Part shown: positions 37,489 through 62,700 of the stretch, piece by piece
Layout of the letters: each line of letters opens with the position of its first letter
How positions within the stretch are numbered: the stretch's first letter is position 1
DNA from: Ulva prolifera
Taxonomy: Eukaryota; Chlorophyta; Ulvophyceae; Ulvales; Ulvaceae
DNA: 64,000 nt
Assembly (NCBI GenBank): GCA_023078555.1
Contig: CM041200.1
Coordinates: 3,398,177-3,462,176 of the forward strand
Reading direction: 5' to 3'
Program-made: the position numbers and the translations under genes
The notes under the pieces: model-generated
What the model saw: the letters and a program-made list of their open reading frames with translations, nothing else
The model's database searches: none
What the model was told of the DNA's origin: nothing

Positions 37489-37489
37489 T

Positions 37490-38823: not shown

Positions 38824-38825
38824 TG

Positions 38826-39251: not shown

Positions 39252-39695
39252 ACAGGCACGCCAAACGACACTGCCGACAACCGCGGTAGTAGTGTGTAGG
39301 TTTCCTTGGAGAGAGGCCTTGACAAGGTTCGTTTGGAAGCAGCCCGCCACCAAAGAAGGAGGGCACGGGGAATCGGCGAGGTAATCAGTTGCACTGGGCA
39401 CGGCAGCGCCGCATATGATGTTGCATACGTTGTATTGTGTTGCATGCGATGTATTTGGATGGATCGAAGTCGGCTCTTTCACGGGCATACAGCGGGCGCC
39501 GCATTGCCATATGGAATGCCACTTGCTTATGTTGCACAGTATTGTCGACGGCACTGCGAGTACGCGCATTGTTGCACACGTTGGACATGGATGCAGTGTC
39601 GCAACATCTTTCACGGGCATTCACCAATCACCGCATTGCCATTCAGGAAACTTTGCGTGGCGGTTCAGGCCACGAATTTTTGCACTCATTTTAAG

Positions 39696-40811
39696 TAGGG
39701 CTGGCGCCAAGGGGTACATTGGGGTCCATATACCGGTATAAGGGCATATATTCTTATACATAGGGTGTAGAAGTATAGGATAAAGGTATAATGAACGTTT
39801 TCGGTGAAAGAGACGCGATGAAATATGTGATCACAGAAACAATTAGGTATTCAGAGAGCCCTTGCTCGCGTGATGCTTGTTGATACTGAAAGTATCCATT
39901 TCAGGTGTATAGGCGTTGTGTAGGCATCGTTGAGTGTTTTGGGTTGGGGTGGACGAACACTCGATGCCTTACTCACTTTCCAAGATTGACTGCAATTCGC
40001 TCGGGAAGGTGCAGAGCAAGCTATTTATATCGTTGGAACCGACGTACACAAAACTTTCCGATGATATTGTGTTGTTGCTCTACAGTGCTCTGCAACAAGT
40101 TGAAGTCTTCCACGCTAGCTTGCTGAGCACGTGTATTGTAGCAATATGTGATCATCTTTCTGGCTTGCTCAAGGGACAGTACATATCTGGAAGCAGTGTA
40201 CACTATACCCCATAGTGACCAATTGCGCTCTGTAGATGCATATGTGGGGTGCAATGCCACTGTGGCAACTCTGGCTGGAGAGTAGCACCTGTTTTCTACA
40301 CACACTCGCATGTGCATGCAACCCGGGTGGATGAAGTATGAGAATGGCTGCAAGAATGTGACTGCATCCTTCACATCCTTGTAGAAACAATCAAGATTGA
40401 CGTCTTGCATCAGCGATGCACCGAGATATTCGTTGTGACATTGATCCAGTTAGTTTTCTGCTATTTTTATCAGTTTTGTGTGCACACCTCAGATGATCTG
40501 CCCCTCCCCCGGTCAGCCCATGCATCGGTACATACTTCTTGAATAAATGCAGCCTTGCTATTCAAAATTCCTTTCATCACGAAGAACGATGTGGCAAATC
40601 TCGGAGGAACATTGACCGGAACGGCTCGGGTCCTGCCATAAATGGTGGTCTGCGCGTGGTGAAGCAAACCCTTGGCAGGGCCAGAGTCTTGCTCATAATT
40701 AGCTATTGTACAACACAGTTGTACAAAGTGCTTCACAATGCAAGCATCATGGCACCACAAACGGGGATTGTAGATCCAAATTTTTGGTAATTTTTTTTGT
40801 GCAATCGCCAC
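39696..40811 (-). mobile_element. hAT transposon remnant, right arm
   Basis: Inverted copy of 12,966-14,081. It begins at the terminus TAGGGCTGGCGCCAAGGGG (39,696) and is cut at about 40,811 next to gene M. The transposase exons are identical in content to the left copy. No target-site duplication can be identified because only one end survives. Confidence 0.7.
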
Positions 40812-40855
40812 GGGCTGCGGGTAGTCAACAAAAGACTTTCACAACAATTGTGCAG

Positions 40856-42519
40856 TGATGATACATATGTCGACCCGCTGGTGGCCGGTCGACGTCGGCA
40901 TTGTGGAGACCGCCGGCGCCTGCTTGGTGCACGAGCTGCAAGAGGGCGTAAATGGCGTCATCGCTTGGATCTCTCCGATTTGTCGGCGTGCAGTGGATGC
41001 ATGCATCCAACTGCCCCGTGGGTCAATGTTTCATTGATCCTTGTGGCTATGTTGATGTGCCCCCCTCGAGACGTCATGCGTGTCGGAATTTTACCGGCTT
41101 TGGTGTATCTTGGCCTTGTCGATGGGGACACAGGGCTCACGACTCTCTTCTATGCAATTGGCGTGGCATGGCTCTGCATGCGCTTGCATGGGTATGCTCC
41201 ATCATTTGCAATGCATAAGCCGTGCATGTGTTTGGCCGGCTGTCCATGTTGGAGCTGTGGCTCATACGAGCTTAACTGGATTATGCTTGCAGGCTTGCGT
41301 CCTTGACCGTTCGCATTGTAGCCAAGCCCACTTTACGGGCGTTCTTGACATGGGCTCCATGGGTTGCACTGGGGGCGGCGATGCCATGGTTGCGATTGAA
41401 AGATTCCGGTGGACATGAATGCGACGGGGCGTGTGTCATTGGCCTTTGCACTGCAATGCTACTGAGTCACGTGATGTTGGAATATCTGATGGCGACAATG
41501 AACGTCTTGTTCGCCTGTTTGTGCATGTGCGGGCACTCTCACTTCTTGCATACATCAATGCTAGTGTTGTTTTGGATGCATGCGATTGTAGTGTAATCAT
41601 GATGAGTGATCACGTTCACAGAGGTGTTTGTGTTAGAGGTGGGGCTACCATTGCATGTGTTTAGACATTTCGTTTTCATTCATTGTGTCACTCGTGTGCA
41701 GGTGTGTTTCCATGGCTGCTCGTGCGGTCGGCCGAACAGTGTGGTGGTCGTTACGGGTGTTGGCAACAACATTGGGCGTGCGCGACCGGATGATGGAGGC
41801 TGCCATTGATACGGACAAACTGTGCAGCGTGGCACACCATATCTTGATCGCAGTGCCCGTGCTGTGTTGGACGCATGGATGCGTTAGCATCTACCGGTAT
41901 GCATCTCTCAACCGCCGAGAACACCGCCATGTGTATAGGTCGCCAAGACGCGTGTGTGGCTCCAAACTTGTGCAGCTCTTCATGTGGTGGGGTGATAGTT
42001 GTGGCATCGGTGCAGTCTTGCGAGGATGACCGGGGACACATCGAGCCGACACGACGTGAAGGTGTCCTTGGCCTACGCACCGTGTGTTGCCATTGGTGCA
42101 GCCATCCATCAGCTGCATGGCGGGTTGAACGGCGAAGGCGTGTCTGCTGCACTGACAACGATCGGATTCTGCACGGCGTTTGTGGTTTGTCTCCTTGCAC
42201 GCAAGTACTGGGGGTGTGTTCCGTTTTTGATACATCCATTGTCGACACATCCAACAAATGTGTGTCGCTGCAACCGTTGTTGGGTTGCAATGGTGACAAC
42301 AAAAGTATGCATAAATTCAGGTACACACGCGCCGTGGTCCGCGCAACCTTCATTCATGAACACACTGCAATGATACCCATTGTTTGCCCGGCTTTATTGG
42401 GTGCATTGGGGACTCTGTGCGGGTTCCCATATGCACTTGATATCATCATGGGGGCGCAGACGATTGCGGCAACCTTGGCTATCCTCGTCGAGATCATTGG
42501 GTGTGCTCCCGTATGGTGA
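40856..42519 (+). CDS. Gene M, right copy: polytopic membrane protein, 5' end missing
   Basis: Five exons: 40856-41191, 41293-41526, 41702-41896, 42016-42213, 42321-42519, all with compatible phase. Together they encode about 386 residues ending at TGA 42,517-42,519. The first recognisable exon starts at an acceptor (TGCAG) and needs two bases from a lost upstream exon, so the gene is 5'-truncated where it meets the hAT remnant. About ten hydrophobic segments are visible: roughly three in the first exon, two in the second, one in the third, two in the fourth and two in the last. The reading frame of the first exon is chosen because the paralog M2 differs mainly at third positions in it (conserved KWRHR motif). 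The family is not recognised; a transporter- or channel-like protein is only a guess. Confidence 0.65.
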
Positions 42520-42745
42520 TTTTTTTGGTGTGGCAATGCTGTGTGATTCGCCGCGGCATTTTGTGGCTCGTGTAGTTGTGATGATTGCACCCTTTGGTCA
42601 CGGTGGTGATTTCTGTTGAAGTGTACATAAACTTACATGATGAGTTCCATGTAGGCGCATATGTATCCATCGCCTCAGCACATGTGCAACACAACCTGCC
42701 GATGATCATGGCGAATCATGCTGTTGCGCTGGACACACACATTGC

Positions 42746-44621
42746 ATGCACACCGAACAGTTGGAGCGCCCTTTGGAAGCGGAGCCACACGCAAAGCCGA
42801 CACATCCCGGTGAGATCGGTGAGGCGTGCCATTGTGATGATCCGGAGTGCATGCCGCGTCAGGACAGCTTCGATTGCATCTCACCCGATGACCCACGTTT
42901 GACGAAACTGAACGATCTGTTTCGTGCGTTGCAAGAGGAACCTTTGTGCTTGCCGAGAATTGATCAGATTGGGTCGATGATGCGGATGCGTGGTGGAGGT
43001 GCGAAGCCAATTTGGATAGAGAGATGGAAATCCACCACCGTGAGTTGTCATATTGTTTATAATATCATTTGATATTCACCATGTTTTGGATCTTGTTCAG
43101 CTGCCATGCATCGATCTTGCGTGCATGCATATTTTTATACGCGAGTTTTCGCATTCTGTTATTGCGTGAGGCTCGATTTTCGTGTATAACTTCCTCCAAC
43201 ACCACTTGTGACGTCAACAGGGAGTACTGATGATGTTTCCGAGTACCAGCCACAATCCAGTTCAGATGGTGATGACATGGATTGTGATGCCCCCAAATGC
43301 GCACACAAACGTGCTCCAAGTGCCGACATGCATGATGTAGTCGATCTCGTTGCTTCGGATGATGAAGAGATGGCGAAACATGTTGATGCGGGCGAAGAAG
43401 GCGTGATGCATGAAGACGAGGCTGAGGACTCGGACGACGAATGGACTCAGGACCCAGAGATTTCAAAAATCCTGGGCCCCGAGTGGTATGGCCAGTGCGT
43501 TTTTGCTCGATCGTTATCATGTCATGTAGGGTCAAGATTGTAACCCATTGTGTCGCATTGCGGATAACCGGGCGTACTTTCAAACATGGCTGCCGCACCG
43601 TGCAGGGTGAAAACCGCGTTTATGACTTCCACACAAGTTGCGAAAGATGCTGTGCAACCGAGCATGCTGCAGACGATCGTTGAGTCACAATTCCACACCG
43701 ACATCGCAAAATGGATTGACGAAGGGGGTTGCTGGTGGCGCACATTCCCGGCTCGCGTGGAGAAGACCCAAAAAGGGATTGGCGCGACATTCTATCGGTT
43801 TGTCACGGCGTACATCGCGGCGGTCTTGTCCGGGTGTGATGAGCCGGGTGAGTATGGAAAGTCTTGCAAGGCCATCAAATCGAAGTTGGAGGGACACCCC
43901 GAAGGGGAGGTTCCCATGAGCGCTGTGATCAAGACATTCCAAGATTGTCCCGCACTGCTGTTCTCCAACACCCTTGCTCTTTTGAAGTGGTCTGGACATG
44001 TCAAGAAACTTGCAACGTTACATCAATACAAGTTTGCGCTCATGCTAGCGGTCAAGTGCTTCACCGTGGATCAGTGTCGGAATGTCGCTAACCCCAGCGA
44101 TCGAGTATGTTCCTTACCCTTTGTATGCTCAGGCTTGAGGTTGATGGCACGAAAATACACTTGCCGCATCAGGGCACGTTCGTATTTGTTTGTCTGTCAT
44201 TTGGGTAATATTTCGACATGTAATGTACCACCAAGTGCCCTGACGTTTTCACGGCACTCTGGTGCAGGTTCGGCTCGAAGATGCTTTGATTTTCGACAAG
44301 TACCGAATGTGGTACCAACATCATGTGATGTCCATGAAAGCACAGGGGGCCAACATCGTGGACAAACCCACCCCGATGCAGCAGGGTGATATCATGAGGT
44401 GTGCGGAGAACGCACGAGCTGGTGGTATCACACCCATTTATGGGCTCATTGTTGCCGCGTTGAAGTCCCTATGTGGTTGCCGCAACCCTGTCTTTGCGGC
44501 TTGGACATGGGATCAGATCGAGTTCATCCCCACTGCGGTGTACAACAAAGAGACCAATGACGTGGAGGTGCGCTGCTTTCGCGATGGTGTTGCGAAAGCT
44601 TTGTTGCTTGCGATGCACTGA
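42746..44621 (+). CDS. Gene D, right copy: acidic protein of unknown function
   Basis: Four exons: 42746-42998 (or to about 43,039), 43221-43485, 43606-44104, 44268-44621. The three downstream junctions agree in phase. With the GTGCGA donor at 42,999 the total is 1,371 nt, or 456 residues; the stronger-looking GTGAGT donor at 43,040 breaks the frame, so exon 1's end is uncertain. The N-terminus is charged with a His-Cys-rich patch. Exon 2 is very acidic with Asp-Asp-Glu and Ser-Asp-Asp runs. Exons 3-4 encode about 280 residues of helical, Lys- and Trp-containing sequence without a recognised domain. There is no signal peptide or membrane segment. It sits 226 bp after M and 155 bp before S on the same strand. 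Confidence 0.68.
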
Positions 44622-44706
44622 TGTACCGAGATGCATTGGCACAGTGTTGTATGTGCGCCGGGTATGCATGCCGGTGTATGATGTTGATGTTTCCATCACA
44701 GTATGA

Positions 44707-44718
44707 TATATATAAAAG
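44707..44718 (+). promoter_or_regulatory. TATA box upstream of gene S
   Basis: TATATATAAAAG lies 59 bp before the chosen ATG, after the stop of gene D at 44,621. The same element is present in the inverted and direct copies at 9,059-9,070 and 18,619-18,630. Its position supports a separate promoter for S and the choice of first exon. Confidence 0.6.
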
Positions 44719-44776
44719 CATTTGCGCAGCGGGCCATCGTGTGTAACTAGAGGTTTGTGCTTAAATACTCGTGGCG

Positions 44777-47385
44777 ATGCAGGTTGCCTTTGGCTTTACA
44801 AGCCCCATCCCTTGGGACAAAGCACCCAATCAATTTGGGCAGAAGACATTTGCGGTTGATCCGAGCGGGTGTGTGGTCGAAGAGGATGATTGGCGCGCCA
44901 GCATCGCATGCGTTGGAAGCCAACTGCTGATGTTGGCAATGCGACAGGGCTTGATCGAGCTCGGCGACTTGAAAGGTCTGGCCCTTGGCGAACCGTTCAC
45001 TTTGCGTTCGTTGGTGAAGAAGAGGGACCCTGTCGAGGCCGATCGGATGAAACACCGGTGCGTACATGTACCGGTATGTCCAGGATGTCGAAATATTGTA
45101 GCATTGCAAGATTCACGTACTATGTATTTCATATGGTTAGATAACATCATGTATATATCACCATCGTTTTCAAGTGTGCCGTGTCAACTTAGTTTTGGGC
45201 ACTAATTGCAATAATTGTTGATGCGATACGTAGTGTTGCTATGCTGCGGGTCCACGGTCGGTATTGTTTTTGAAGATAGTTGCCGTTGACCATGGTTATG
45301 TTACGCATAGTGTTATGTATCAAAGGAAGGTCATCAAGTTCGCGATTTCGTGATTGTGTTGCGAATTGATATCCACAGTGAAGAACGTTGAGAATAATCC
45401 GTGTTCCACCAATCTTTGTGATCTTATTGTTGGGTCTGCACTCATTATTTTGCCATGTTTCAGGTTTGTATTTTGCCGCTGGCATGAAATGGTGCCTTTG
45501 CGTGGCACGCCCTCGAGCCCAGAATCCTTCAGCTTGTATTGCCGAGCATTCGGGGCGGCGGGGAACATGAAAGTCACCGCACGTGACCTTCGAACCGGCA
45601 TGGTCTTCAATCGCATGAAGATCTCGCAAGTCGATGACACCAAATGCCAGAATGATATTCACATCTCTCTATCCGGACAGTGGTCCCCAAATGCGTCCAC
45701 CTTCAAGAGTGACTATTTGCACCCGGCATTCTTCAACTCCCTGTACTCTCATGTGGTGCGTCTCTACGGTGTCATGCATTTCAATGTTGAGCAAATTGGC
45801 TATTTTTCCAAAATGTGATCACCAGTGTGGCTGACCTGTCTAATTCACACTGCACCTGACATCACAAGCCTTGGTATATGTATGAACCATGTATAGCTTT
45901 GTCGCCACGTGGGTCGCAAAATGAAGCATCAACATTGGGGACCTTTCGTGCTTGTAGGCTACACGTGACATTTGTGGATCGTCAAGCCTAACCAAAGGCT
46001 TGGTTGCACACGCGGTCGCGGCGGCGCGAATAGTGCGCCAAGAAGCACCTCAACAACATGCAAACTACATGAATGCTGCGGTGTCCGCACTATTCTTGAA
46101 GACCGTCGAAGGAAAACGTCTGCTGTGCGATGCTGACCAAGCAAGTAGGGCATTGATGCAACGCGCCTACGCATCTCATAATGCTGAAACACCCGGGACC
46201 ATCCTTCAGTACGGGTGGGCGATGATCCGCAAGATGTTTACGCGCGCGCCCAACGCCTTGAAGCTGTGGGGCCGCCTCAAACATGCTCCACCTGCGGATG
46301 CCCCCGGTACGCCATGCATCGCGGTGCCAAAACATGAGGTGGTTGCAATGTATCACACAATGGTGACTGTACCCTAGTGTCTACAACACGTCGCATATGA
46401 TGCTTGCATCTCTCGATCGGTGTTGCCTAGCTAGTCAACGGAGGAGGCGGTGTTGACAATATTGCATCGGACTCGGAGATCTTGAATTGATGGCGAGTGT
46501 GAACGTACCTTGCATGCAGAGGAGTTGCAAGCGTTTTGTCGCTTCATTGGACATTCCGGGACCGTGCAAACGGAGTGGTTGAAGCACCTTTCCAGAAGCC
46601 ACCCCGAGTTTGAACTGGGCGACGTCCTCGAGACTGCGGCGGGACAAACTCGAAAAGAGCTTGCAGCATCGATGAAGGATACATCTCGACCGGAGAGCAT
46701 GCGAGACTCGTGTGATGATGTTGCTGATGTTTTGGACATTTGTCGCACGGGTCTGGAGATGTCCATGGACTCGATGCTCGGCAAGGAAGATGCGTCGTAT
46801 GCTGCCGTGGTGGGGCAGGCACTAAAGGCACGGGCTTCGTCAACATACCATGGGGAGCAAACTGCAAATATGAAATATGGCGATCAAACATTTCAGGTGT
46901 GCGAATTGATACCGGAACCTCATGTAGTTGATTGATCATATTTGTTCAACTTTGGCTTTCAAACCAGTGTGGCTTTTCATCAGTGTGTGCCCTTTGGTGT
47001 CCACACCACTGATTGCTTTGAATCGTGTGCTCATCTTAAGTTGGCCACGAAGGGATTGCTCTTTGGGTGTTGCGGCATGGTGTGCAACCCTAGCCTTGCA
47101 AATCAAGCACTTTCTTAGTTGACTAATCCTAGGTTATGTATGGTAATCGATCTTCCCTCATTGGCAGGCTTTTGCAGGCAACACGGACGGGCATGTTGTC
47201 AATCCTGAAACACAGGAAGGCGTTCCTTGCCATGTGCGCACACCCGTTGATGCCTGTGCGTCCAGAAGCTTTGAACATGTGGGATTTCCAGAGGTTTTGC
47301 GGAGGCGAAGTCTTTGCAAATTGCATGCGGCAGCTTGCGCACGACGACCATGGGCTCGCAAACTGGATCGAGGTCTTACGTCTTG
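44777..47385 (+). CDS. Gene S exons 1-5: unrecognised N-terminal region
   Basis: These five exons encode about the first 502 residues. The start at 44,777 is the first ATG after the TATA box, in the sequence GTGGCGATGCAG. I do not recognise a domain. The segment is soluble-looking, with no signal peptide or membrane span, and has several Trp- and Met-rich helical stretches. Exon 2 is rich in Ser, Asn and His near residues 150-190. Exon 4 is strongly charged and looks helical (Lys-Glu-Leu and Asp-Asp runs, about residues 340-430). The exon 3 donor is the least certain; GTACGC at 46,307 is chosen because it is the one that restores frame into exon 4. Confidence 0.55.
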
Positions 47386-50300
47386 GTATGCTCTCTTGAA
47401 TGAAACAATGAACGTCTGTTTTGTGGAAATTTTGCAATGGGTGTTTTTTGCCATAGATGGCGTGTACAATGTGCGTACACAGTGGCACTCTGCATGGATC
47501 TCCATGTATGGGAGGCTTGATCATTCTGTGAAATCATATGACACGACAGATTGTGCGCACTTGACATATCATTGTGCAGTAGGGCACTTGGTGGCTATGT
47601 ATTGTAATAGTGTGTGTGTGCGTTTGTGCAGCTCGCGCGACGGACGTCACGTTGCTGCCATCCGCAGCTCGCGCCTCAGCATTGTATGGAGGCCAACGCA
47701 CAACGGACATGTGCAACGTCATCGTCGATGTCAACGACGACGGAAGCGTGGTGCTGTGCAACGCCGACATCGGGCCGTCCGCGTCATACCGCGCGGCTCA
47801 CATGTGCCAAAAGCATGCAAAAGGGCGCGTCATCCTGACCGACCAGACGGGTTCCGATGGCGTGGGAGTGTTCAAGAGATGGTGCAACAAGTGCAAGGCG
47901 CTTATTCGATTGCTCAAGTTTGAAGGTCTCGGGAACGTTTGCGCCAGACACAAGGGTGATGATCGCGCATGTGACGGGCGCATTCCGGTGGCGGCGCGTC
48001 CGAGCGCTCAACAAAGCGCCGCGGTTGGCGCTTGTGCGCCAACGCTGGGGTCCATCTGCGTCGATGACAGAGGCAGAGTTGACGTGTCGTCCAAGACCGA
48101 GTGCGATGTGCGTGGTTGCACAAAAAGCGTGATGACCATGGAGGGTTTGTGCCACAAACACAGCAAGGTATGGTCCCAAAGTGTTACCACATGCATGGAT
48201 GCACATGTCTGGAGCCACATTAGTCAGCGTATGTGTTGTTTACTCATACGCATGTATGTATGTAAGAAGGCTTACACGAAGTCTGTACGCACTTCCATAA
48301 ATAGAAATGTTTCTGTGATGGTTGATGCATGGTGATATGTGAGTTTGTGTTTGGGTTTACGTGTGTGTGTGTGTGTGACCGGTTGTATTTGAGTGAAACG
48401 TGCATCATATTTGCATGCGGATATGTATGCGGTGGCACATGAAAATTTTGTAAAACTTTTATTCATAATAATGATAATAAAATTAATGATGATTATGATT
48501 AAGCATAAGCGTAGTGATCATTATAATAGTAAGAATAAAAAGAATATTAGTAATAATCATTATAGATTATTCTTTTTGAGTAATACTAGAATAGTACTAG
48601 AAGCTTCGTACAAGCCAACATATGCTCTCATCATACTCATTGTGATGCAGGCCAATGAATTGATCGATGCCGAGGGGGTCAAATGCCGGCTTTGTTTCAA
48701 TTGCCGCAACTTCAAAAGACCTCATCAATTCACCATCCGCTCTCGTGGCTGCAAGGACGATGCCGATCACTCACACCACTGTATTTGGTGTTTGTATGTC
48801 GACAAACGTGCAAAAGCGGACACAGAGTCGCAAGCACCTAACCGCTGCATCCACTTATCCGAAGAGGACATCAGCGCGTCATTGCCGACAGCTCCGCGTG
48901 ACGAGCCAGCGATGTACACCTACCGTGGCGACCACGCCTTCCCGCCTGATGGCAATCGCGTCGTGCGCGATGTCACCGCATGCCGCATACATGGTTGTGA
49001 CGGCAAGTGCGTCGATGAAGACGGCGGCAAGCCCCACAAGTCACAGCTGTGCCCGAATCATCGGGGGCGAGCAATTTGGGAGATCACCCCCCATTTGCGG
49101 CGGCAAGTGCGTTGGTGCTCGCAATGCTGCTGCTTCAAAGCAGTCCGTGCGTGGGCAGAAGGCGAGGAGCACCGACCGACCTGTACGGAAGGCCGGCTTG
49201 CCAAGGCGAAGCGACAGCGAGGCGAGAACATCGTGCATGCTTTCGGCGAGCGGGCGCCGTCCGGCCACGAGTGGCTGCGCTGGCACAGCGGGCGCATTGA
49301 TGTGGGGGCCGACCCGCCGGTGCGTGGGCGAGGTGGCCGTCGGAAGCCTCGTGCGGGGGACGATGCCGCCCCATCAAAGCTGTGTCTGGTGCACGGGTGT
49401 CCGCATTACCAACATGACGACAAGAGTCAAGTCTGTGAACACCATCTGCACTCGGTGCTTGCGAGTGAGGGAGAAGAAGGGGGCCCATTGCTATGGATGT
49501 ACTGCTTCCGGTGCCGGGCGTGGCGCACGGCGTACGGCTTCAGCAGTGACGGCCGGTGCTCTCCATCATGCAGGGCCAAGGGTACACAAGGGTTGAAGAC
49601 GTCCCGAGCGGCAAAGTTTGCCGCAAAGGTGTGTGCAGAGGTCACCAAGCACATGTGCTCGGCGAATGCATGCGCACACACCGTCATGTTGAGGGTGTGT
49701 GAAGAGCTCGCCATCGGATCGTCGGATCCGCCCGTGCCTGGGGACTCCTCCAAGACCTCCGATACTACCACGGCCGCCGAGACCTCGGACAAACGGAAAG
49801 CGCAGCAATGTTGCTTTTCACCACACGGCTCTACCAACACGTGCGGCACGCGTTTCCATGACGGCCACGCGAGCGGCATGTGTCAGCAGCACCGCAATCG
49901 GGTGGTGGTTCGCGGAGGGGCTTTGCGATGGTGGTGTCCAGGGTGTGCGTCCATGCGTTTGCTCGCGGGAGTGGAGCACGGCATGTGTGCATCATGCGTT
50001 GGCATGCGTGCACAACGGTCAGATTTCTTGGCCAAGCAGCCGGCCGTGCCGCCAAACGTCGTGGTGGAGCCGCCTGGGTTGGGATTGCACCCTGTTGTGT
50101 CATGCGCAAGGACCACCGTTGGCGAGTGCAGCCGTCACGCCGATCATGTCCCAGCGGTTCCTCGTAGCACCCCAAGTGCTGACACCGTGCCCGAAGATGT
50201 CCCAACACACAGTGCTTCTGATGATTGCCTCCAATTGGCTGACGCGCCCGATGGCATTGCGATGTCATCAGAACCAGCCGTCGTGATTGTGGACTCTAGA

Positions 50301-53300
50301 TATGGATATCCCACAACAGTGGGAGTCAGGTTCCGTAGCCTGTGTGCACTTACATGTGCATCACTGGGATGAACAGAAATGCGCTGGGCATGAAGCTCAT
50401 TGGGTGCCCAATGCCAGCACCATCTCCCCGATCTGAATGTGCGTGAAATCCTTCTCAAGTCTATTGCAAAATCTGCAAGGGGCAATTATTCCACACCAGT
50501 CCATCACTTACGCGGACTGACCACAGCTGTAATAATAGCTGTCAATCTGGTAGGAAAACAGTACGTGTGCCTCCGGCTGTGATCAAGGTCGAATACAACA
50601 AGTACCGAGCGGCAGACTAAACACGACAGCGCTTGCGTCATTGATGTGGCAGTGAGCAACTTCCACACACGCACAGGGCAAGACAAGACAGAACTGACAG
50701 GTCTGATGGGCAAAGCTTGCTGATTTGGCAGAGGTGGGTGGCTCCGATCGGCGCAACAAGCCAGCTACGACTGCTGCTGCGTCTAGTGTTGTTGGCATGT
50801 GTGCCCTGAGAGGCTGCCATAGAACATGATTTATGCGAAGCCCTCTCCTACAGGTGTGGACAGGCTGTGAAGTTTCGGAATTTACCTCACCGCCAAGCGA
50901 AGGTCAATGAAACACAGTGTGCTGGCGGGTGGCATGTGTTGGCGCACACACCCCTCTCCTCGCAGCGGAGAAGTCGCGCCACAGCTACAAACGAGGCTCG
51001 GCATGGTGGCAGCTGAGATATCCCTCGACCTGTTTCGCGCGCCTGTAGACTTACGAAGGGGCTGCTGTGACACTGCCCGCGCATGGCTGANAACCATGTG
51101 ACGATGCCCTTGCGAGGAGATCACCTCGGTGGCGGAGGTTGTCGAGATAGCTGCACCGGTGAAGCAATCCAAAGAGACCTGTCGCGGCGATCAGTGCCAA
51201 AAACCCATCACACCCGGCACATGCCTCGGAGGAGCATGCTTGACATGCATAGCTACGTGTCTCCTCGGGGCTTCGCCATTGGACCTATACGTTTTAGCGG
51301 TCGTTCCGGGAGCTCTGTACAAAGGCGCAGGTAAGATTTTCTTGACAGTGCATGTCACGACACATCCAATGCCTTGTGAAGACATGCGTCATGTTGCTTG
51401 GTGATCCCGATCGTCCCAGCGTAGCCGTACACTGTGCAACCGCATTGAATAAGACATATACACATACATTGCATGCAACGTCTAGGGCTATGCCGAGCCA
51501 GCGTGCAATATTAATAATCCAATAGTATGTCGATCGTCCATGGATGTAGGGACACTGCAAGACCACCTCCAAATGTCGTGCCTCCCAAGCTCGGAGCTCG
51601 CCACGATACGCCCGCGCCAAGCCACCCAAACCGATGCTATGGCTGCGTACGCGTATGCCAAACGCGTCGCCTACCGCATCATGCCCGAAGGTGAGAAGCA
51701 ACAGAAACGTGACGAGAGGACGGCACAGGTGGCTACCAACGCAGCGCAAGGTCGTGTGCCATACGGTGTTCCTCACGGCATCGTCGCCAACGCGCTGCGC
51801 GGCGGTCCATGCAACTCTCGCGTCTGTGCATACGGTGCGCACCTACAGGAAGGTTGTGTTTCTGTTTTGGTTTGATGGTTGACTTGTAGTTGTGTACATC
51901 GTCACGACTTTTGTTCTTGTGTGCGGATGGAATTGCATGTCTATTTCGCAAACGCGGCGGGGGGGTTTTTTTTTATGATTGTCGATGAAATCGTGGGTAT
52001 TGGGGTTCCGATTGCTGAAATGGTGCCATTGGGGTCGTCCGTCAGAGCCTAAGATGCATAACTTCACCACAACGGGCTTGTGATAGCTAATTGGTAATGA
52101 TGCGCGGCTACCATAGATCATATATTATATATGGCAAACATACATTACTGATGCATGTTTAATGCTGTGAGAAACCAAAAGGTACCAATTCTGCGAGGTT
52201 GGTAGGTATCCCGTCGTGTTTGCTTGGCAAACGGAGTTATGTTTTGATAGTGTATCAGGGTGGTTTCGTTTCTGTTGGTTCAAGGCTAGCTTTCTTGCTA
52301 AACCGCCTTTTGGGGCCGGGATCGTCACAACAGTGCTTGTGCTTGCAGCCTCAACCGCAATGTCTCTTGTGGAAATGCTGCCCAACAAGAAGGTCCTTCG
52401 GAGTCTCGATGAGGTTCACCTGCGCACGAGGCGCTTGCTACGCGAGGGGAATGGCGAGGGCAGTGCGCTCTACGTTGCTGTGCGAGAACGGCCTGCCGGC
52501 GAGGGTCTCAAGACGGCCATCGACATTGTGCGCCAATTCGGGCCTCATGGCATCACCACCAAGGCGCCAAAGGCGACCAAGAATCGCCCAATGGACCGAA
52601 AGGCCGACACCAGTACACGGCTGTTGGTGCGAGTGGGGCGGGCCTCTCGACAGCCATTCACCATGTCGGTGTCGGAGGCCGCGGTGTCGTACGATGTCGT
52701 CCACGACGGCATCCCCCTCCTTGACCCATGTGCGACCCTGTGGAAGGTCGACATTCACATCGTGCAACTCGTGCGCGATATGGGTGAACTGTTGGCGCAG
52801 CGGGCCTGGTCCTCTGACGGCGATTGCAAGCCGGAGATCCATGTTTCGTCGGCACTGCTGCTGCAGAAGCTGGGCATCGGGTCAGGCGAGTCAGGCCCCC
52901 TTACCGATTGCACCCGGCTCGCTCAGTTTCTGTCCGTGTTCTGTTGGGCAGCCACGCTCTGCATCTTTGCGGACATCAAGACTCTGGATCCGAACCGGGC
53001 ACATGCGTGGCCCCTGGCATGTGCGACCGCTGTCGTGCGTGCGTGGGAGCTATATTTCCACTGCCGGAGCCATGGCGGGCCGGGTGGCCATGGCGGCCCC
53101 AACGGCCCCGATGACCCGGGTGGCGCGCCTGATGGTGGAGGTGCTGACGTTGCCGATGGACCCGGTGCTTTTCCTCCGCCGTACTCGTGTGAGGAGGCGG
53201 AGGCACACATGCAAGCGGGCCTCGACAACAGCGATGCCGATGTCAAGTACTACATGGACGCCGACGATCACCCGGAGCATGTTGTGCCAGTGAACGGTTC

Positions 53301-56114
53301 GGTACGTTGCGCCACACCTCGTGCATGTCATGCACTGGTGTGATGGCATCGGCACGTGGTGCAACATATCAGTCATGATGATCTCTTATCAATTCATTTG
53401 CACCCACAATATCGTTGCTGCAATTGGAGCGCATGTTGTCACAACTACAAATCTCGGGTCATGACCATCACATGTTGAGAAGCCGCTGCAGGTGTTGTAC
53501 TCCCTGTTGCGCGCTCGTCCGTCGATGATGTTCTTGATTGGCGGACCAGGCTGCGGCAAGACAGCTTTGATGAAGGACATGGTGGCGATGGCTACAGAAG
53601 GCACCGCTTTCCGCAACGGCGTGATGCAACAGGCCCAGCCAAATGTGGTATACCCGGATGCCGCGGCAGAGGAGAATGTGAAGTTGATGACCCATCGTGC
53701 TTCGCTCCGATTCCACATCGGCTGGCCGGCGGAGACCATCACCCAAGCCATGTCCTTTTTCAAGTGGGACATCGGAGCAGGCGATGGTGCTGGCGGGTAC
53801 CCGATGACGATTGCACAAAAAGTCGCCCGCCACGCCTTTCATGCGCTTGAGGAAGTGCAAGCGTGGGTGACACTTCTGCCCCAGTTCTTCGAGCGTTGGA
53901 AGTCCGCCCGCAAAGATGTTCACCCCCAGGAGACCGTTTCGGACATGCTTGCTGCATGCCCCCATGTAGCGGCCATGGATCCGTTGCAATCCTCGTGCAA
54001 GGTCGTCGGAGTCCGGGCCGTTCGTGCAAATGGAGGTGTCACATTTGAGGAGAGGGACGTCGTCATGCCGTGGGAGCGAATTGCTGCGCTCACCTGCCCG
54101 CCTGGCGCCAACATGATGTGGCACATTTGCTTCGTCCATGATCAACACCGCATCAAGGGCGCTTTGTTCAGATTGCTTCGAGACGGGTACGAGACCTTCA
54201 ACGCGACATGCATCATGTTTTCATGTGAGGGTGGTGCATGCCAATTACACATGCTCATGTAGCATGTATGTGCCATGGGTTTGTCTACTCCAGAATGCTA
54301 TCGTTATGCTTGTGAGCTGACAATGCACCCGCACACTACGTGGCTTGCCCTCCACACGAGTCTAACATTCGCACATGTCCACCCCAACCAAGCATGCGTA
54401 TGTGACTGACGTGGTGTGATCGACTAACATGTGATCCGCTTGCTTGCAGAGATCCGCTTGCCTTTGCATTAATGGCGATGCGACGCGTTCACGTGGAGAC
54501 GGACGACAGATTCGTCACATACTTCCCAGAAGACTTGACAACGCTCGGTGCAGCTGCATGGGGTATGAAGCCCTTCCACCACGGGCAAGAACACCAGGGC
54601 CCGCGCACCTCCGATGCCAATGTCCACCCGGCCTACAAAATGTCGGGGCCCGGACTGGACAGGCGGACACGCCTTCCGACCACCATTTTCATCGCGGAGA
54701 CGAAGGAGCAATGCCAAGATATCGTCGAGCGCCTCCGCCGCCGAGCGGATTACCTCGCTTTGTTCGGCCATGCAGTATGGGGCATTGCGATGGTGGTCCC
54801 TTGCGCGAATCGGCTCGTTCGCGCGGCAGACGCCTATGCCTTTGAGTATGCTACCCTATCCCCTACATGAATGCGTGCACATGCAATATATACATGCTGA
54901 ATTCATGCGTACGAAACCGTGCGCACTACACACCATAGATATACATGCCTATGTGCCACGTGGACCTTGGTCATCCCATTTCCATCATGCATGCCGGATT
55001 GACTGTTGTCATTTGCAGTGTGCGTGTGAATGCAACATACATTTCGGGGCTTCCATGAGGGGGTTCAGATAACCCCCATGCCTCGTTGCAACCTGCACTT
55101 CGGGGTTTCCACAAAAATAATAATAATAATAAAAACTAGACTGTCGCGTCTTGCAGGTGTCACACTCCTGAAGGTCAGCGAAACGTGAAGGAGCTCGACA
55201 ACTACACCTTGACGACGTGGGACAAGATTCGCCTCCATGTTGGGGAACCGATGCTCTTGACCACAAAAGTTTCGGAGACCATGCCCAATGGCTCGCCGTG
55301 TGTCATCAAGCGCTTCGAAGTCGTTCTCAAGGATGCAGCACGAAGAACAATCTTGGGCAAGTGCTCACAAGCGCTGAGGCAGGTCTACCAGCGACCATCC
55401 GCATGGTCGCCCGTGACGTTTGTGGGGCCCTCTCCGGGCGTACCTGAGGGCGGATATCATCAAACTAACCATGCGACTGTGGATGATGTCATCACCACGA
55501 CAGTGAATCGGTTCCTCGATCGGATCACCATGACGGACGTTTACGAGAACCATGTCTTCCTTCCAGCATGTCAAGTTCGCACCCCAGCTGACGTTGTGGC
55601 TGACACCGTCTACCACCCTGCCCCGGAGCTGGTCTTCGACCGAAGCAACAATCTCGTGGCTTGCCGGGTCACGTTCCCGCTCGTGCCATCTGCGGCGAGA
55701 GTGGCGACTTCGATGCTGAGCTCCACCATCGAGCTTGGGGAAGCACGTTGTGTGGCGCACTCGATGTCGAGCGCCGATACGACGCTCGATCCCAATGCCC
55801 ACAATGCGGCTTTGTATGTCGCGTCCACCAGGGTTCGCGACATGGCCGATCTAGCCATCACCCACGACACCGTGCTCCACCCCAACATGTTCAAACCCCG
55901 ACAGCCACTCCGGAATGTGGTGCGAGAAATGCGTGTGTATGGTGGGTACGTGCGGGTGTACCATTGCCGGTCGTTGTCACTGGTGCCAGAGCATGTGGCG
56001 CGTGATGATGCTGTGCATGATGCGAAATTGAACGCCCAGATGGGGGCTGGCATGTTTGAGGCGCCTATCGCTCTCGGTGAGCAACTCTTGGCCGCAATGC
56101 CGGATGAAGAGTAG
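44777..56114 (+). CDS. Gene S, right copy: multi-exon protein with SBP-like zinc modules and PIF1-like helicase (split by an insertion)
   Basis: Twelve exons can be joined with compatible phase at every junction: 44777-45057, 45464-45755, 45958-46306, 46520-46896, 47178-47385, 47632-48167, 48651-51330, 51550-51852, 52349-53301, 53492-54224, 54452-54845, 55157-56114. Ten of eleven donors have G at +5. Replacing exon 7 by its uninterrupted left-arm length (1,912 nt) gives 7,296 nt, a multiple of three, or about 2,431 residues. Residues 1-500 are unrecognised, about 530-1130 hold five SBP-like zinc modules, about 1320-1737 are unrecognised, and about 1738-2431 look like a PIF1-type helicase. A TATA box lies 60-70 bp before the ATG. 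As assembled, exon 7 is broken by foreign sequence at 50,298-51,095, with a stop at 50,370-50,372. The locus could alternatively be two or three adjacent genes; the weakest joins are exons 3-4 and 10-11. Confidence 0.72.
47632..50297 (+). CDS. Gene S exons 6-7: array of five SBP-like zinc-binding modules
   Basis: Each module repeats the SBP pattern: a C-x4-C pair (or similar), a later C-x2-H, then C-x2-C preceded by an aromatic or basic residue, then a final Cys or His. Approximate residues are 530-609, 659-715, 792-859, 925-988 and 1067-1130. Modules 2, 3 and 4 have first pairs CDVRGC, CRIHGC and CLVHGC, close to the CQVEGC type of plant SBP domains. C-x2-H sites include CQKH, CHKH, CPNH, CEHH and CQQH. 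The second knuckles include CNKC, CFNC, CSQC, CFRC and CPGC. Module 2 is split by intron 6 between its two zinc-binding halves, so it appears only after splicing. In known SBP proteins this domain binds DNA with a core GTAC; whether these divergent modules do so is inference. Confidence 0.75.
48436..48600. other. AT-rich block inside gene S intron 6
   Basis: A stretch dominated by ataatgataataaaattaatg-like sequence between the GT microsatellite and the exon 7 acceptor at 48,650. It is conserved in the copies at about 5,180-5,340 and 23,590-23,740. An ORF of about 60 codons upstream of exon 7 runs through it and is not coding. Confidence 0.5.
50298..51095. mobile_element. ~0.8 kb insertion (R7) in right gene S exon 7
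   Basis: Absent from the left-arm S, where exon 7 is continuous across 29 bp that are replaced here. Positions 50,319-51,089 match 57,307-58,077 (shift 6,988) almost perfectly. An ambiguous base (n) stands at 51,091, right at the join. No transposase, terminal repeats or target duplication is seen. It may be a real duplicative insertion or a misjoin. Confidence 0.7.
51096..53301 (+). CDS. Gene S exons 7 (3' end), 8 and 9: unrecognised middle region
   Basis: After the insertion, exon 7 resumes near 51,096 and ends at the strong donor GTAAGA (51,331). It contains further Cys pairs and a hydrophobic stretch near the donor. Exon 8 (51550-51852) is Ala- and Arg-rich. Exon 9 (52349-53301) encodes about 317 residues with a mixed alpha/beta look, then a low-complexity Gly-Pro-Asp linker (about 53,075-53,160) and an acidic tail leading into the helicase. 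I looked here for a HUH relaxase motif, as in Helitron Rep proteins, and saw none. Splice phases fit on both sides (1-nt leftover into exons 8 and 9, phase 0 into exon 10). Confidence 0.6.
53492..56114 (+). CDS. Gene S exons 10-12: PIF1-like superfamily-1 helicase region
   Basis: Exon 10 opens with a hydrophobic strand and a Walker A loop, GGPGCGKT (about residues 1754-1761), as in PIF1/RecD helicases. Near its end is a His-Arg followed by a Leu-rich helix and Arg-Asp-Gly, resembling the PIF1 HR-x-LL-x-R-x-G region. Exon 12 has LHVGEPMLL ... NGSP, matching the PIF1 pattern VG-x-P-VML ... NG, and later ALYVASTRVRD, matching helicase motif VI (LYVALSRVR). I could not place a clear Walker B/DE motif, so activity is uncertain. 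The exon 10-11 junction uses donor GTGAGG and the second of two adjacent AGs. The gene ends with TAG at 56,112-56,114. By family, the role would be ATP-driven unwinding of DNA. Confidence 0.72.
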
Positions 56115-56119: not shown

Positions 56120-56590
56120 ATGCGTAGGATGCTTAGGTTAGACAATTCGGACTTGATTGAAAAGGTTGTCCTACTTTGTTTCCACCCTTCACGGTATATC
56201 AGAGATCAGAGCTGACTTGAGCTGTTGCTGCTGTTGTATTCTTTCTCATGTGTTGCAATCACATCACACCAAGTGGTATCGTTGTAGTTGACACGGCGTC
56301 ATTCGTGGCCGCATGGAAGCGGCATGTCCAGGATGCGCACCGTTGCAGCTTTGCAAAGCATCATTCACTTGGTTCAATTTTTGCTGCATTAGCGATCCAG
56401 CACAGTTGCGCAAACGTTGTTCTTCATGGGTGGCCTTAGCCACGAGTGGCACATCCACGAACATCCGAAATGAGTTGACCAGAACTGCACCAGCAAGCGA
56501 ATGTATGTGAGGTGTGGCTGCACATGACAATGTGTCATTAATACATGTCGCCTTCTGAAATGCGTCGCGATCTACGATTGTTGAATACAC
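56120..56590. other. Spacer after gene S with dispersed repeat R5
   Basis: About 56,190-56,330 resembles 35,270-35,390 and, inverted, about 27,960-28,090 (motif tcacacc-aagtggtat-gt). The copies are diverged from each other. There is no gene before the M3 fragment. Confidence 0.45.
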
Positions 56591-57306: not shown

Positions 57307-58077
57307 GTGGGAGTCAGGTTCCGTAGCCTGTGTGCACTTACATGTGCATCACTGGGATGAACAGAAATGCGCTGGGCATGAAGCTCATTGGGTGCCCAAT
57401 GCCAGCACCATCTCCCCGATCTGAATGTGCGTGAAATCCTTCTCAAGTCTATTGCAAAATCTGCAAGGGGCAATTATTCCACACCAGTCCATCACTTACG
57501 CGGACTGACCACAGCTGTAATAATAGCTGTCAATCTGGTAGGAAAACAGTACGTGTGCCTCCGGCTGTGATCAAGGTCGAATACAACAAGTACCGAGCGG
57601 CAGACTAAACACGACAGCGCTTGCGTCATTGATGTGGCAGTGAGCAACTTCCACACACGCACAGGGCAAGACAAGACAGAACTGACAGGTCTGATGGGCA
57701 AAGCTTGCTGATTTGGCAGAGGTGGGTGGCTCCGATCGGCGCAACAAGCCAGCTACGACTGCTGCTGCGTCTAGTGTTGTTGGCATGTGTGCCCTGAGAG
57801 GCTGCCATAGAACATGATTTATGCGAAGCCCTCTCCTACAGGTGTGGACAGGCTGTGAAGTTTCGGAATTTACCTCACCGCCAAGCGAAGGTCAATGAAA
57901 CACAGTGTGCTGGGGGTGGCATGTGTTGGCGCACACACCCCTCTCCTCGCAGCGGAGAAGTCGCGCCACAGCTACAAACGAGGCTCGGCATGGTGGTAGC
58001 TGAGATATCCCTCGACCTGTTTCGCGCGCCTGTAGACTTACGAAGGGGCTGCTGTGACACTGCCCGCGCATGGCTGT
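57307..58077. repeat. R7 segment, second copy
   Basis: Duplicate of the insertion in gene S. Contains a short direct repeat of 'agctgt' around taataat but no recognised gene. It runs directly into the R1 variant block. Confidence 0.8.
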
Positions 58078-58084: not shown

Positions 58085-58462
58085 TGCAGCCCACCGCAGG
58101 GCCACCCGCTGTGAAAACAACGGGGGGCGTTCGTCGCCGGCGCGTGGCCGTGCATGGAATCGGAAGATTGACATAGCGTCGACGTGATTGATAATAACCG
58201 TCGGTACGCGTCTTCAACCCCGCGGCGGCCGGCCGCGGCCGCCGGGGGGAGGGGTTTCGGGGGCGGGGGGGGGTTCGTCGCCGGCGCGTGGCCGTGCATG
58301 GAATCGGAAGATTGATAATGCGTCGACGTGATTGATAATAACCGTCGGTACGCGTCCCCAACCCGCGCGGCCGGCCGCGGCCGCCGGGGGGAGGGGTTTC
58401 GGGGGCGGGGGGCGTTCGTCGCCGGCGCGTGGCGTCGCGGCCCCGCGGTGGCCACACCGGCC
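58085..58462. repeat. R1 variant block, right
   Basis: Three diverged units containing gcgttcgtcgccggcgcgtgg and a tcggaagattga spacer, followed by R2. It joins the end of the R7 segment. Confidence 0.75.
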
Positions 58463-58849
58463 ATCAGCACAGCAGAGGCACGGGGCCTTCAGCTCGACAT
58501 AGCGTTGACGTGCTTCTGGGACGCCCTGGGCAGCTCTGATAGGTGGCTGTGTATACGCGATCGCAATGCTGACGAAGCATGACGAGCGATACTTATCTGT
58601 AGCTGGTACGTCCGCATTGTGACCGGCTGTGCAACAATTCGGGTGCACAGTTGTCGTCCACAGCCATACAGTCCCAGACACAAGATGAAAGCCACTCATG
58701 TCCACATTTATTCAGCCGATGTGCCACTCTAGCACCGATGTTGCTGGTGCGTTGGCACCGGTGTATGCTGAACCACTGCACCAGGCTTCATCTGTTCACC
58801 GCTCAGCACTACACGTTTATGCAGGTGCACAGGTTTATCAGGTGAAACA
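58463..58849. repeat. R2 segment, copy 4 (most complete)
   Basis: Combines the parts found separately at 32,627-32,837 and 31,199-31,417, and so shows the sequence before R1 units separated them. Confidence 0.8.
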
Positions 58850-59105
58850 ACGTAAACAGAAAATTGCGTAGCAAAAGCTACAAACCAGTTTTGGGCAAGC
58901 GTTCTCCGGTATCTTGGTGTACACAGTATCAAGTTTGACACTAGGTGTGTTGCCATCCCGTGTTGCTATCGGGTTGAGACCCGGGCCTGAGTGTGTGGCA
59001 TGCGGAAAATCAAAGCAGTGTGCATGAAGGCGGATCAGCAATTGACAGCATCTCGGCATGGACAGCTCGTCGCATCTGAGCACCGTTGAGGAATTTTTAC
59101 ACAAC
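58850..59105. other. Single-copy spacer
   Basis: Continuation of R2 beyond the point where R1 inserts in copy 1. No gene or repeat is recognised. Confidence 0.35.
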
Positions 59106-61260
59106 TCGGGCTACTCCGACTGGAGCTCCGTGGCCACCGTGGGACAAACTACAGATGTTTCGTCGTGATGCCTCACATGCATACGCACCCATAACATTGC
59201 CGAAACATGCCCGTTCCGCACCACAGCGACATCCATGAAAACAGCAGGAACTACACCACCTGCGAGGCCAATCCGCGCTCCATTTAGGGCTCGTTTCTTC
59301 AAATTCACATGTCCTCAGCCCGTCGCTCATCCTGGTTGCTCACCCCTTGGTGAGCCAACTTGCTGCAACTCCTGTGCAGGCCCACGCAGATTAAGAATGG
59401 GCGGTCGGTCTCTCTAGCTGGCTTGCCACCCACAACTCTGCTGCAAGCATTCTCACCACTATGCTACAACAACGCTCACCACACCTACATCTTGCACGTG
59501 AGCGCTGCAGCGGTACCGCAGGTGGTCTTGCATGAGGCAGGCAATAGAACACTGTGGTGATGGCATCCCTGCAGCACACTCACCACTGCACAAAGCCACA
59601 TATGTCCTCAGAAATCAAACATGACAACCTTCAACGGGGCTCCCAAGCACAGCCCGTGGCAGAGAGCTCCACATCAGCATTGGCATTCAGGCCCTTTGCA
59701 GAGGAGCTCGCAGCGGGCACTGGACTACACAACCAAGCCTAGCCACGGCAATGGAAACCACACGTCATGAAGCGCTTCCAAAAGCCTCACCACATGCTAA
59801 TGCAGTGAGCACAGATGCCGGTTACCACGAACTGCAGACACCAGCTATAGGCATCCTCTTGTGCACTGGCATGAGGATCGCCATCAGCATCGGCGGAGCA
59901 GACACATTGCGATGGAAACAGCCCACTGATGTATGTATGTCCGTTCATGCACGGCACGGGGCGTCGGGGCGCCTGAGGACAGCGTACCGCTGTGGTGCGG
60001 ATGGCTCGCCCGCGGAGGGCTCCACGCCCACGCAGGTGGCGACACACGCACATGTGTTGTCGTATGTCACAGGCATCGCCTTGAACCAGGCGTCGCTCGC
60101 CGCATGTGCGCGTGATGCAGCGGTGGAACAGCACGAACTGGCTCCGTGTGCGGTGCAGTCCACCGTGGCACGGGCGTGGCAGCTAGCCGGCGCGAGCACG
60201 CGGACAACGCCCTCGCAAGAGAGGGCTGCATGTTTGTCAAGCCGGGGGTCGCGTCGCGGGAGCTGCGGGCCCTGTGTCGCGGAACGGAGCCCGTGCAACA
60301 CCCGGACAAGCTGCTGGGCGGAGCAGCGTGCACACGGACGTCGCAACAATTGTCAGTGAAGTGTCAGTACAACAAAGTGCCGGTGAGAAGGCGTGGTGAA
60401 TGGCACAACGGCACGGGACGATGCTCCAGGGCCTGGTGGCCCTGTCGCAGCGCGGTGCTCGAGGATATCTGAGAAACGGCAGCAGCACCTGACGTCACCT
60501 TTACAGTAGAGTTGTGTCTGCTGTGCGTGCTCTGGAGCACGTATCCAGGCATGCCGGTTTCCACTGCGACCAGAACAGCGTCCGCGACGCTGAGTGCACG
60601 GAACGGCAGGCAGCTAGGCGGACTGATACTGAGTTACTGAGTTGCTATTGGCAAGCATGGCGTGGCCCAGCTTAGGTAGGGCAGATGGCACGTCGCCATT
60701 GCTGCTGTACCTCCTGGTGAAGTTGCTGTTGTGGCTGGCGGTCGGACTGGGCTATGCCTGCTTGGCGCGGTGCGCTTCATCAGTCATGAGCGACATCCAT
60801 TGCTCAACCACGCACACGCTCCACACGCATAGACACACACCCACACACGGTAGCCTGCGTGCCGTCGCATGTAGGTGTTTCGCAAGGGTGGGTTCAAACA
60901 GAACGTGGTTCCTTGCAGGCCCTCGTCGCGAACGAAGGGAGAGGACGAGCATGAGGTAACACCGAGGTACCGCAGCCCCCGGAATCGGAACAGAGACCAG
61001 AGCTGTATTGAAATGTTGCTGCGGATGTATTCATTCACATGTGTTGGAATCCCATCACACCGAGTGGTATTGTTTTAGCGGACACGGTGTCATTGATGCG
61101 ACGGCCACATAGAAATGGCTTAATCGCTCGGCGCACCATTACAGCCACGCAAATCGTTCACCTGGACCGGTTTGCGCTCCTGCCAGCCCGGGAGGAGCTG
61201 CGTGGATGGTGTTCTCGATGGGCGGATGTAGGAACGGACGAGGTGCACGAAACTCCGTGA
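59106..61260. repeat. R6 segment, copy 2
   Basis: Duplicate of 33,356-35,558, truncated by R3 at 61,265. Confidence 0.85.
60657..60788 (+). other. Short hydrophobic ORF, third copy
   Basis: Part of the near-identical R6 duplicate, so its identity to 34,943-35,074 is explained by recent duplication. Confidence 0.3.
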
Positions 61261-61274
61261 ATGCCTCTTTTTCC

Positions 61275-62700
61275 TATTCCTATTTTGTCGGTACGCGATA
61301 TCAAAACCGCGGCGACCGGCCCGGGCCGGCGCGGGGCGCCGGGGGGGGGTGAGGGGAGGTTTTTCGTCGGTGCATGGCGCGCGCGGGGCCCCCTGTGGTC
61401 ACGCGTCCGCGTCACCGCACAGCACCGACGGCGAGCGCGACGTACACGCTATTTCGCCGTGCACGACGCCATGACGAATGCAAGCCAACGCTTTTGGGGT
61501 GGTATGGCGAGCTGGCGCGCGTGGAGCGGTGCGACAGGCAGACATCGTTCCAACCGAGCACTGCCAGGCGGTGGGTGCGGCAGCGAGGTCGTCGCGGGCC
61601 GCACGACCACGGACTGGCAGGATCGGATGGTTGGAAATCGAAGGCTGGAGTCGGGACAGGTGGCCGCTGGTGCAGGTGGGCGTCGCCTGGCCTGGAGACA
61701 GGGCCACAGCGGTCAGATGCTCGCAGAGAGGCGCCGGGCATGCGCGGCCGCGAACAACGACTGGAACATTGGATGAATTGGAAATGGAGCAGTGGAATTG
61801 GTAGCAGGCAGGTGGTGTGGCAGGCTGGCGCAGGGCCTTCGGAGACAGGCCTGTGGCGGGTCATGGTCGAGCGTGAGCCGCGCGATGCTGTCCCAACTTG
61901 AAGCGGGAACCGCGGCACAGAAGACCAAAAGGATAGCAGATCGTGTCAGAAGCGGGGGTATTCAGGATGCGCGCTGCGGGTGGCAGCCAAGGTGGTGCTT
62001 TAAGCGTGCAGGCGATGCTCGCAGAGAGGCGCGGGGCGCAGCCGGCCGCTGACACGAACCAGGACACTGGAGGATGCGGATCTGGCGCAGTGGACTGTGC
62101 TAGCGGGCCGTCGGAGCTCGAGGCTGTCGCAGGGCCTGTGGAGACGGGGCTGGCGCGGTGTCGTTGCACATGTGCGGGCACCTGCGCCGCTGCGAGGCGA
62201 CCCGTGTCTACATAGCACCGCAGGCACCGCCAGTGGGATCGAGGGATGGAATCGATGGGGCTGGCATGGATGTGTGCTGCCACGGGCAGCCCCGCTGGTG
62301 CTGTCAGCGTGCAGGCGCTGTTCACACAGAGGAGCCGGGCACGCGCGCCGCGAACAACGATCGGAACATTGAATGGATCAGAGATGGAGCGGTGGATGTC
62401 GGTAGCGGGCCGATGGTGTGGCAGGCTGGCGCAGGGCCTTCGGAGACAGGGCTGACGCAGCGTCGTTGCACATGTGCGGACACCGGCGCTGCTCGAGGCG
62501 ACCCGCGTCTACAGATCACCGCAGGCACCGCCAGTGGGATCGAGGGATGGAATCGATGGGGCTGGCATGGATCTGTGCTGCCACGAGCAGCCCCGCTGGT
62601 GCTGTCAGCGTGCAGGCGCTGTTCACACAGAGGCGCCGGGCTTGTCCGGGCTACGGACACGGACTGGGACGTTAGATGATGCAGATCTGGAGCATTGATC
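61275..62700. repeat. R3 repeat, fourth copy
   Basis: Same orientation as the right-arm copy, with 9 G at 61,341-61,349. It starts at CCTATTTTGTCGGTACGC (61,279), directly after the segment that duplicates 33,356-35,558. Confidence 0.85.

Follow-up and report, generated by a model that had tools for sequence, protein, structure and literature searches.

Does one gene of Ulva prolifera join an array of SBP-like zinc modules to a helicase-like motor, and if so, what kind of genetic entity would carry it? The question was raised by a sequence-only reading of a 64,000-nt stretch of contig CM041200.1 (hereafter the window), which proposed a single 12-exon gene at 44777-56114 that joins an SBP-like zinc array to a PIF1-like helicase. 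Our analysis shows that the gene itself is real, though it is not single-copy: it sits within a large multi-copy repeat, inverted and tandem, of which four copies (A-D; the gene described here is that of copy B) and one fragment (F) lie in the window.

Exon chain and extent of the gene

A simple, splice-aware gene finder, trained on obvious long exons, found one long chain of exons on the + strand from 42746 to 56114. Its last 12 exons are those of the gene proposed earlier, running in phase from 44777 to a TAG at 56112-56114 once three splice ends had been adjusted by hand after the run. The introns of the genes are GT-AG, which marks the stretch as eukaryotic, and after adjustment the 11 exons up to the interruption of exon 11 contain no stop when joined. 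In the 16-exon model that starts at 42746 (8,553 nt, about 2,850 residues), all 15 donors carry G at +5 and all 15 acceptors AG, sites that the scorer itself favours; 11 of the 15 acceptors end in GCAG.

Held-out scoring points to the same chain. With codon statistics drawn from exons at 47637 and later only, the + strand of 42500-47500 gave a 9-exon chain with a score of 46.1, vs. 0 for the − strand; the mean and the maximum of 100 Markov surrogates were both 0.0, and five other regions of the window scored at most 1.6 on either strand. With a fuller training set, stretches outside the copies scored up to 5.6, the highest of these values being due to fragment F, which lay at the border of one such stretch; a 4-exon, 1,056-nt chain obtained with this set over the left-end repeats (37591-39299) was taken as spurious.

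All exons lie on the + strand. No domain was recognised in the products of exons 1-4 (42746-42998, 43221-43485, 43606-44104 and 44268-44567) or exons 5-9 (44783-45057, 45464-45755, 45958-46306, 46520-46896 and 47178-47385). Exon 10 (47632-48167) encodes SBP-like module 1 and the first part of module 2; the first part of exon 11 (48651-50297) encodes the remainder of module 2 and modules 3-5. The rest of exon 11 (51092-51330), exon 12 (51550-51834) and exon 13 (52349-53301) again show no recognised domain. Exon 14 (53492-54186) encodes the P-loop GGPGCGKT and the AAA_19-like start of an SF1-type motor, and exons 15 and 16 (54450-54845 and 55157-56114) encode the motif-VI-like YVASTRVRDMAD and end at the stop.

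The proposed single gene is present as an exon chain in phase, but with four more exons upstream and within an inverted and tandem repeat. From 44777 onward its 12 exons total 7,242 nt if exon 11 is given the length it has in copy A (1,912 nt). The 7,296 nt reported before exceeds this by 54 nt, so at least one junction must differ; no single splice end accounted for the excess in a check of splice sites, and the earlier exon 11 acceptor was rejected as its source, the sequence having no AG there. In place of a product of about 2,431 residues, we favour one of about 2,850 residues encoded by 16 exons.

Where the gene begins, and whether it is one gene, can be judged from the junctions. The ATG at 44777 lies inside an acceptor, GATGCAG/GTT, whose exon starts at 44783; the start proposed there is probably part of this splice acceptor and not a true start. 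The donor GAG/GTGCGC at 44567 and the acceptor at 44783 join in phase 0. Because the ATG falls inside an acceptor and exon 44268-44567 ends in a donor of matching phase, we favour a single gene from 42746 that would include the four constrained, phase-matched exons at 42746-44567. The same stretch could instead hold two adjacent genes, one with exons at 42746-44621 and a stop at 44619-44621, the other running separately over 44777-56114: the open reading frame does continue to a stop ending at 44621, an ATG is present at 44777, and copies D and B differ at 8 of the 155 positions of 44622-44776, as a spacer might. Given the phase-0 join and the position of the ATG within the acceptor, however, we consider this arrangement unlikely. 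Still less credible, in our view, is that the zinc array and the P-loop protein belong to separate transcripts that are joined on paper only. The join between array and motor was read from DNA alone, and its junction lies outside the diverged copies D and F, which leaves room for such an error; yet exons 10-14 are in phase, their donors match the consensus, and the exons from array to motor keep the same order in copy A. The phase of the junctions leads us to favour array and motor as parts of one gene.

The zinc array and the P-loop motor

The SBP-like nature of the zinc array was borne out by profile comparisons. Against Pfam SBP (PF03110), the array piece matched in three stretches at 5.9e-5, although its 23.7 bits are below the 27-bit cut-off. 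The open reading frame of exon 10 matched the same family at 3.3e-4. A profile built from all five modules placed seven SBP entries as the first seven of 16 PDB hits (7.3e-6 to 0.54), with the next match at 6.9. When module 1 was left out, SBP entries were the first three of 26 hits, at 0.0028, 0.003 and 0.041, and six of the first eight, two RNA polymerase subunits coming fourth and fifth; a single-sequence PDB search with the array piece also ranked SBP first, at 0.16 only. These rankings show, at the level of profiles, that the five modules descend from SBP domains.

The modules are nevertheless degenerate. According to passages of PMC4606839, the SBP domain has two zinc sites, Cys-Cys-Cys-His and Cys-Cys-His-Cys, and SBP genes occur in green plants from algae up and not in prokaryotes, fungi or animals; this distribution is the chief reason for inferring a green-algal host. 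The canonical second site (Cys-Cys-His-Cys) is not matched in any of the five modules: by eye, its defining His is replaced in each of them (by I, K, K, R and R), and HMMER alignments of the modules with SBP set the His of CSRFH against a non-ligand column. A C-terminal Cys/His pair could conceivably stand in for the lost His.

Passages of PMC4606839 give GTAC as the core to which the SBP protein CRR1 binds. GTAC was not enriched in the GC-rich arrays or the left ends of the repeat (8 observed vs. 9.3 expected in the largest array), and the idea that the SBP array binds GTAC at the element's own arrays finds no backing in these counts. The motif is enriched in the gene body (46 vs. 29.3 expected) and in the window as a whole (213 vs. 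158.5), a distribution that lends no support to a terminal target.

The C-terminal part is, in our judgement, probably a diverged SF1B/PIF1-like motor. Exon 14 has the Walker A sequence GGPGCGKT, and its best Pfam match is AAA_19 at 6.7e-5 (23.5 bits vs. a cut-off of 25.1). In hhalign against eight Dda-related helicases from phages and plasmids, the P-loop was found at 7.7e-6 and AALYVASTRVRDMAD was aligned with the columns of motif VI (0.088); the score of this second match, 20.9, barely tops the maximum of 20.7 among 50 shuffles. FHALEEVQ, VGEPMLL and VTFPL, read by eye, we take to be further PIF1-like features; FHALEEVQ would be the likely Walker B, and it lacks the usual D. Exon 15 gave no match to the Dda-related alignment, and an attempt to align the C-terminal part with helicases end to end by force was unsuccessful. 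PF05970 (PIF1) was not among the Pfam matches at E<=5, whereas the control, T4 Dda, matched it at 7.6e-12. What stands of the PIF1-like helicase proposed earlier is the Walker A and the suggestive, motif-VI-like YVASTR; the PIF1 part of the Pfam check that the sequence-only reading had set for itself fails. Searches of PDB sequences with the C-terminal part returned nothing meaningful, and AlphaFold2 models of exons 14 and 16 made without an alignment were uninformative (mean pLDDT 35.2 and 35.3).

Copies of the repeat, their selection and their damage

Copies A, B and D and fragment F carry all or part of the gene; copy C shows only the shared left end. Copy A (1-16686, − strand) is cut by the window edge. 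Copy B begins with the left end TATTTTGTCGGTACGCG, followed by divergent tandem repeats of about 300 bp (37488-38831, +). Copy C is represented by its left part (61278-64000, +; equivalent to 37491-39828 of copy B), as the window ends before its gene would be reached. Copy D (17249-23140, −) retains its left end, lacks the equivalent of 38697-41409 and ends at the equivalent of 46083, having lost its right end. Fragment F (23141-25551, −; equivalent to 46636-49042) abuts the left end of copy D. The copies are about 96-99.9% alike across their overlaps: A and B share 99.8-99.9% identity across two long blocks, and the main block of D has 98.1%. Blocks outside the gene are also duplicated (33383-35554 and 59110-61268, 99%).

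The 20-base left end occurs five times in the window at <=3 mismatches, vs. 0 expected: at 16686 (−), 23140 (−), 30887 (+), 37488 (+) and 61278 (+), with 0, 0, 1, 2 and 0 mismatches, respectively. The occurrence at 30887 heads an array, and the other four head copies. Four of the five begin with TC, the exception being copy B. The sequences that flank them differ: a GC-rich array for A, fragment F for D, a gene-like block for B, and for C a block shared with 33383-35554. The block upstream of the left end of B recurs at 26585-25956, where it continues, at 25954, into different sequence with no left end. Folding of the left end as a stable hairpin was no better than that of shuffles (z 0.54).

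Several other repeated elements accompany the copies. GC-rich, satellite-like arrays lie at 30873-33355, 16688-17257 and 58121-58850, with units of 99-113 bp, typically about 103 bp. Arrays of these ~103-bp units resemble the left end (58200-58274 vs. 37497-37567, 76%), and GTCGGTRCG is common to arrays and left ends. All 12 occurrences of the 9-mer GTCGGTACG in the window fall within left ends or arrays, a confinement that follows from the sequence these have in common. Just inside each left end, units of about 300 bp that share roughly 67-74% of their sequence are repeated in tandem (37934-38831, 61716-62760, 15187-16236 and 21926-22691), and 29279-29823 holds about three tandem units of 169 bp. 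Related gene-like blocks at 36857-37490 (+), 40879-41196 (+) and 26585-25956 (−) share about 60-93% DNA identity; their translated exons are hydrophobic by eye, and the left end of copy B directly follows one of them. A further family of blocks, at 34234-35903 (+), 29121-27468 (−) and 56200-56467 (+), has 66-73% identity, with one member just past the stop of the gene; this family may indicate where the repeat ends on the right. Two protein-like open stretches inside copy B (40021-40838, −) have what we assume to be a likeness to hAT-type transposases; they gave no Pfam match at E<=5.

Comparison of the copies shows that past selection acted on exons 1-7. These are the exons covered by the alignment of copies D and B (D, − strand, 17249-21928), in which 20 of 2,010 exonic nt differ, vs. 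81 of 2,659 nt elsewhere (Fisher p 1.1e-6). The exonic substitutions are at codon positions 1, 2 and 3 in 3, 3 and 13 cases; synonymous changes number 13 and nonsynonymous ones 6 (p 8e-5 on the assumption that one in four would be synonymous), one of the 6 being a stop in D. Within exons 1-4 there are 7 differences in 1,317 exonic nt, of which 5 are synonymous and one is the stop in D. Fragment F reaches part of exons 8-11, and each of its two exonic differences from B is at codon position 2; for exons 12-16 the window offers no diverged copy. The recent copies look unselected, because of the 8 exonic changes that separate A from B upstream of 50297, five are at codon position 1, two at position 2 and one at position 3.

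None of the gene copies in the window is both complete and intact. An interruption of 794 bp (50298-51091, +) splits exon 11 in copy B; it consists of 21 bp, a 771-bp repeat (50319-51089) and an N at 51091, and the reading frame stops at 50372; the 771-bp repeat recurs at 57307-58076 with 99.7% identity. Exon 11 of copy A is uninterrupted, and 25 bp of that copy (3457-3481) have no counterpart at the interruption in B, which is also one base shorter than A at 51106. Copy A has a stop at the equivalent of 50236 and one extra base relative to B in a C run at the equivalent of 53958, which shifts the frame. Copy D, besides its truncation, has a stop at the equivalent of 43448. Errors of assembly could account for the N and the C runs.

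Nature of the repeat and comparison with known systems

We give about even chances to the reading that a mobile-like repeat was recently amplified in the nuclear genome of a green-lineage host and that this gene encodes its main protein. This reading is supported by the copies that start with the same left end (five occurrences against none expected) and by the block at 26585-25956, which runs on without one. It is weakened by the unmatched Pfam PIF1 profile and by the lack of any recombinase, HUH, DDE or reverse-transcriptase match, in Pfam for the pieces scanned and in NCBIfam and PHROGs for three pieces; no nuclease, recombinase or transposase was recognisable in the scanned exons, and the three pieces gave weak P-loop matches only in NCBIfam and PHROGs. 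Segmental duplication, moreover, could also give tandem and inverted copies.

Relatives were sought in viral, prokaryotic and phage collections. Protein scans with one exon each, which detect close relatives only, found none in viral contigs or prokaryote genomes; the pattern of the left end had no relative in viral contigs, and tblastn of the C-terminal piece against phages gave no relative and two P-loop matches at E 8. In the window, ARAGORN found no tRNA and Rfam gave no match at gathering scores. No SBP-helicase fusion was found in the literature, in a search outside which lay Repbase and most subscription papers.

Two other identities have to be weighed. The gene could belong to a host or chromosome-end family spread by segmental duplication and not by transposition, presumably comparable to the subtelomeric helicase genes of yeasts and fungi. 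Multi-kb tandem and inverted copies with satellite-like arrays, and the duplication of blocks outside the gene, are what such a history would leave; however, the same left end starts copies beside four different sequences, and none of six telomere-type motifs occurs as a tandem of two units on either strand of the window; we regard this origin as doubtful.

More doubtful still is a rolling-circle element, be it a diverged Helitron or another kind, in which the nuclease part has escaped recognition. The PIF1-like end with zinc modules, the tandem placement, the loss of the right end in copy D with its left end kept, and the TC at four of five left ends would all suit it. Truncated tandem Helitrons are described in passages of PMC5148889, which give Helitron ends as 5'-TC and 3'-CTRR with a 3' hairpin, or as paired Helitron2 ends. 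Against this, the pieces scanned gave no Rep/HUH match in Pfam and have HxH triplets only inside the zinc array, the left end folds no better than shuffled sequence, and the 3' end is not defined.

The multi-copy repeat agrees with the earlier suggestion of a candidate replication or transposition protein, which had been made with no mention of the repeat. The product may be a replication or transposition protein of an undescribed repeat, whose mobility we infer. It would have about 2,850 residues from 16 exons, in which an N-terminal third that is uncharacterised precedes the five degenerate SBP modules, and a second uncharacterised stretch separates these from the C-terminal P-loop motor. 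The SBP modules would form a zinc-bound, DNA-binding array that binds DNA of the element, possibly at the left end that the copies share or at the GC-rich arrays related to it, while the motor, if it is an active helicase, would unwind the bound DNA during copying or strand transfer. Since no strand-cutting domain was recognised, one could lie in the ~939 residues before the array or after the array, or could be borrowed.

A bolder proposal, which we advance tentatively and think rather improbable, is a mobile-element class of the green lineage without a known transposase type, in whose replication protein a plant transcription-factor domain was multiplied fivefold to address the element's own DNA. 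SBP domains are otherwise described as parts of plant transcription factors; their presence, as a degenerate array, on a helicase-like protein encoded by an amplified repeat would, if true, show where these domains can go. The combination of array and motor could then serve as a marker for finding an undescribed class of selfish elements in algal genomes and, if the array binds the ends of the element, would provide a testable case of a host transcription-factor domain recruited for self-recognition.

Three known systems are close enough for comparison. With SBP/SPL factors, the array shares profile-level homology across the whole module, together with the C-x4-C of the first site (three of the five modules), and the C-x2-H of that site and the C-x2-C of the second (all five); it differs in having five modules in series, in the loss of the second-site His from every one, by eye, in a module 1 without the first Cys, and in its attachment to a P-loop motor within a multi-copy repeat. 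With the SF1B helicases of the PIF1/Dda type (PF05970, AAA_19, AAA_30), the C-terminal part shares the Walker A and the AAA_19 stretch that follows it, with the motif-VI-like YVASTR in the right order; unlike them, it gives no significant PIF1 match, its motifs II and V are degenerate by eye, and its activity is uncertain. Helitrons resemble the repeat in their helicase-like C-terminus, zinc modules, and tandem and truncated copies, whereas here no Rep/HUH nuclease was found and only a putative left terminus is recognised.
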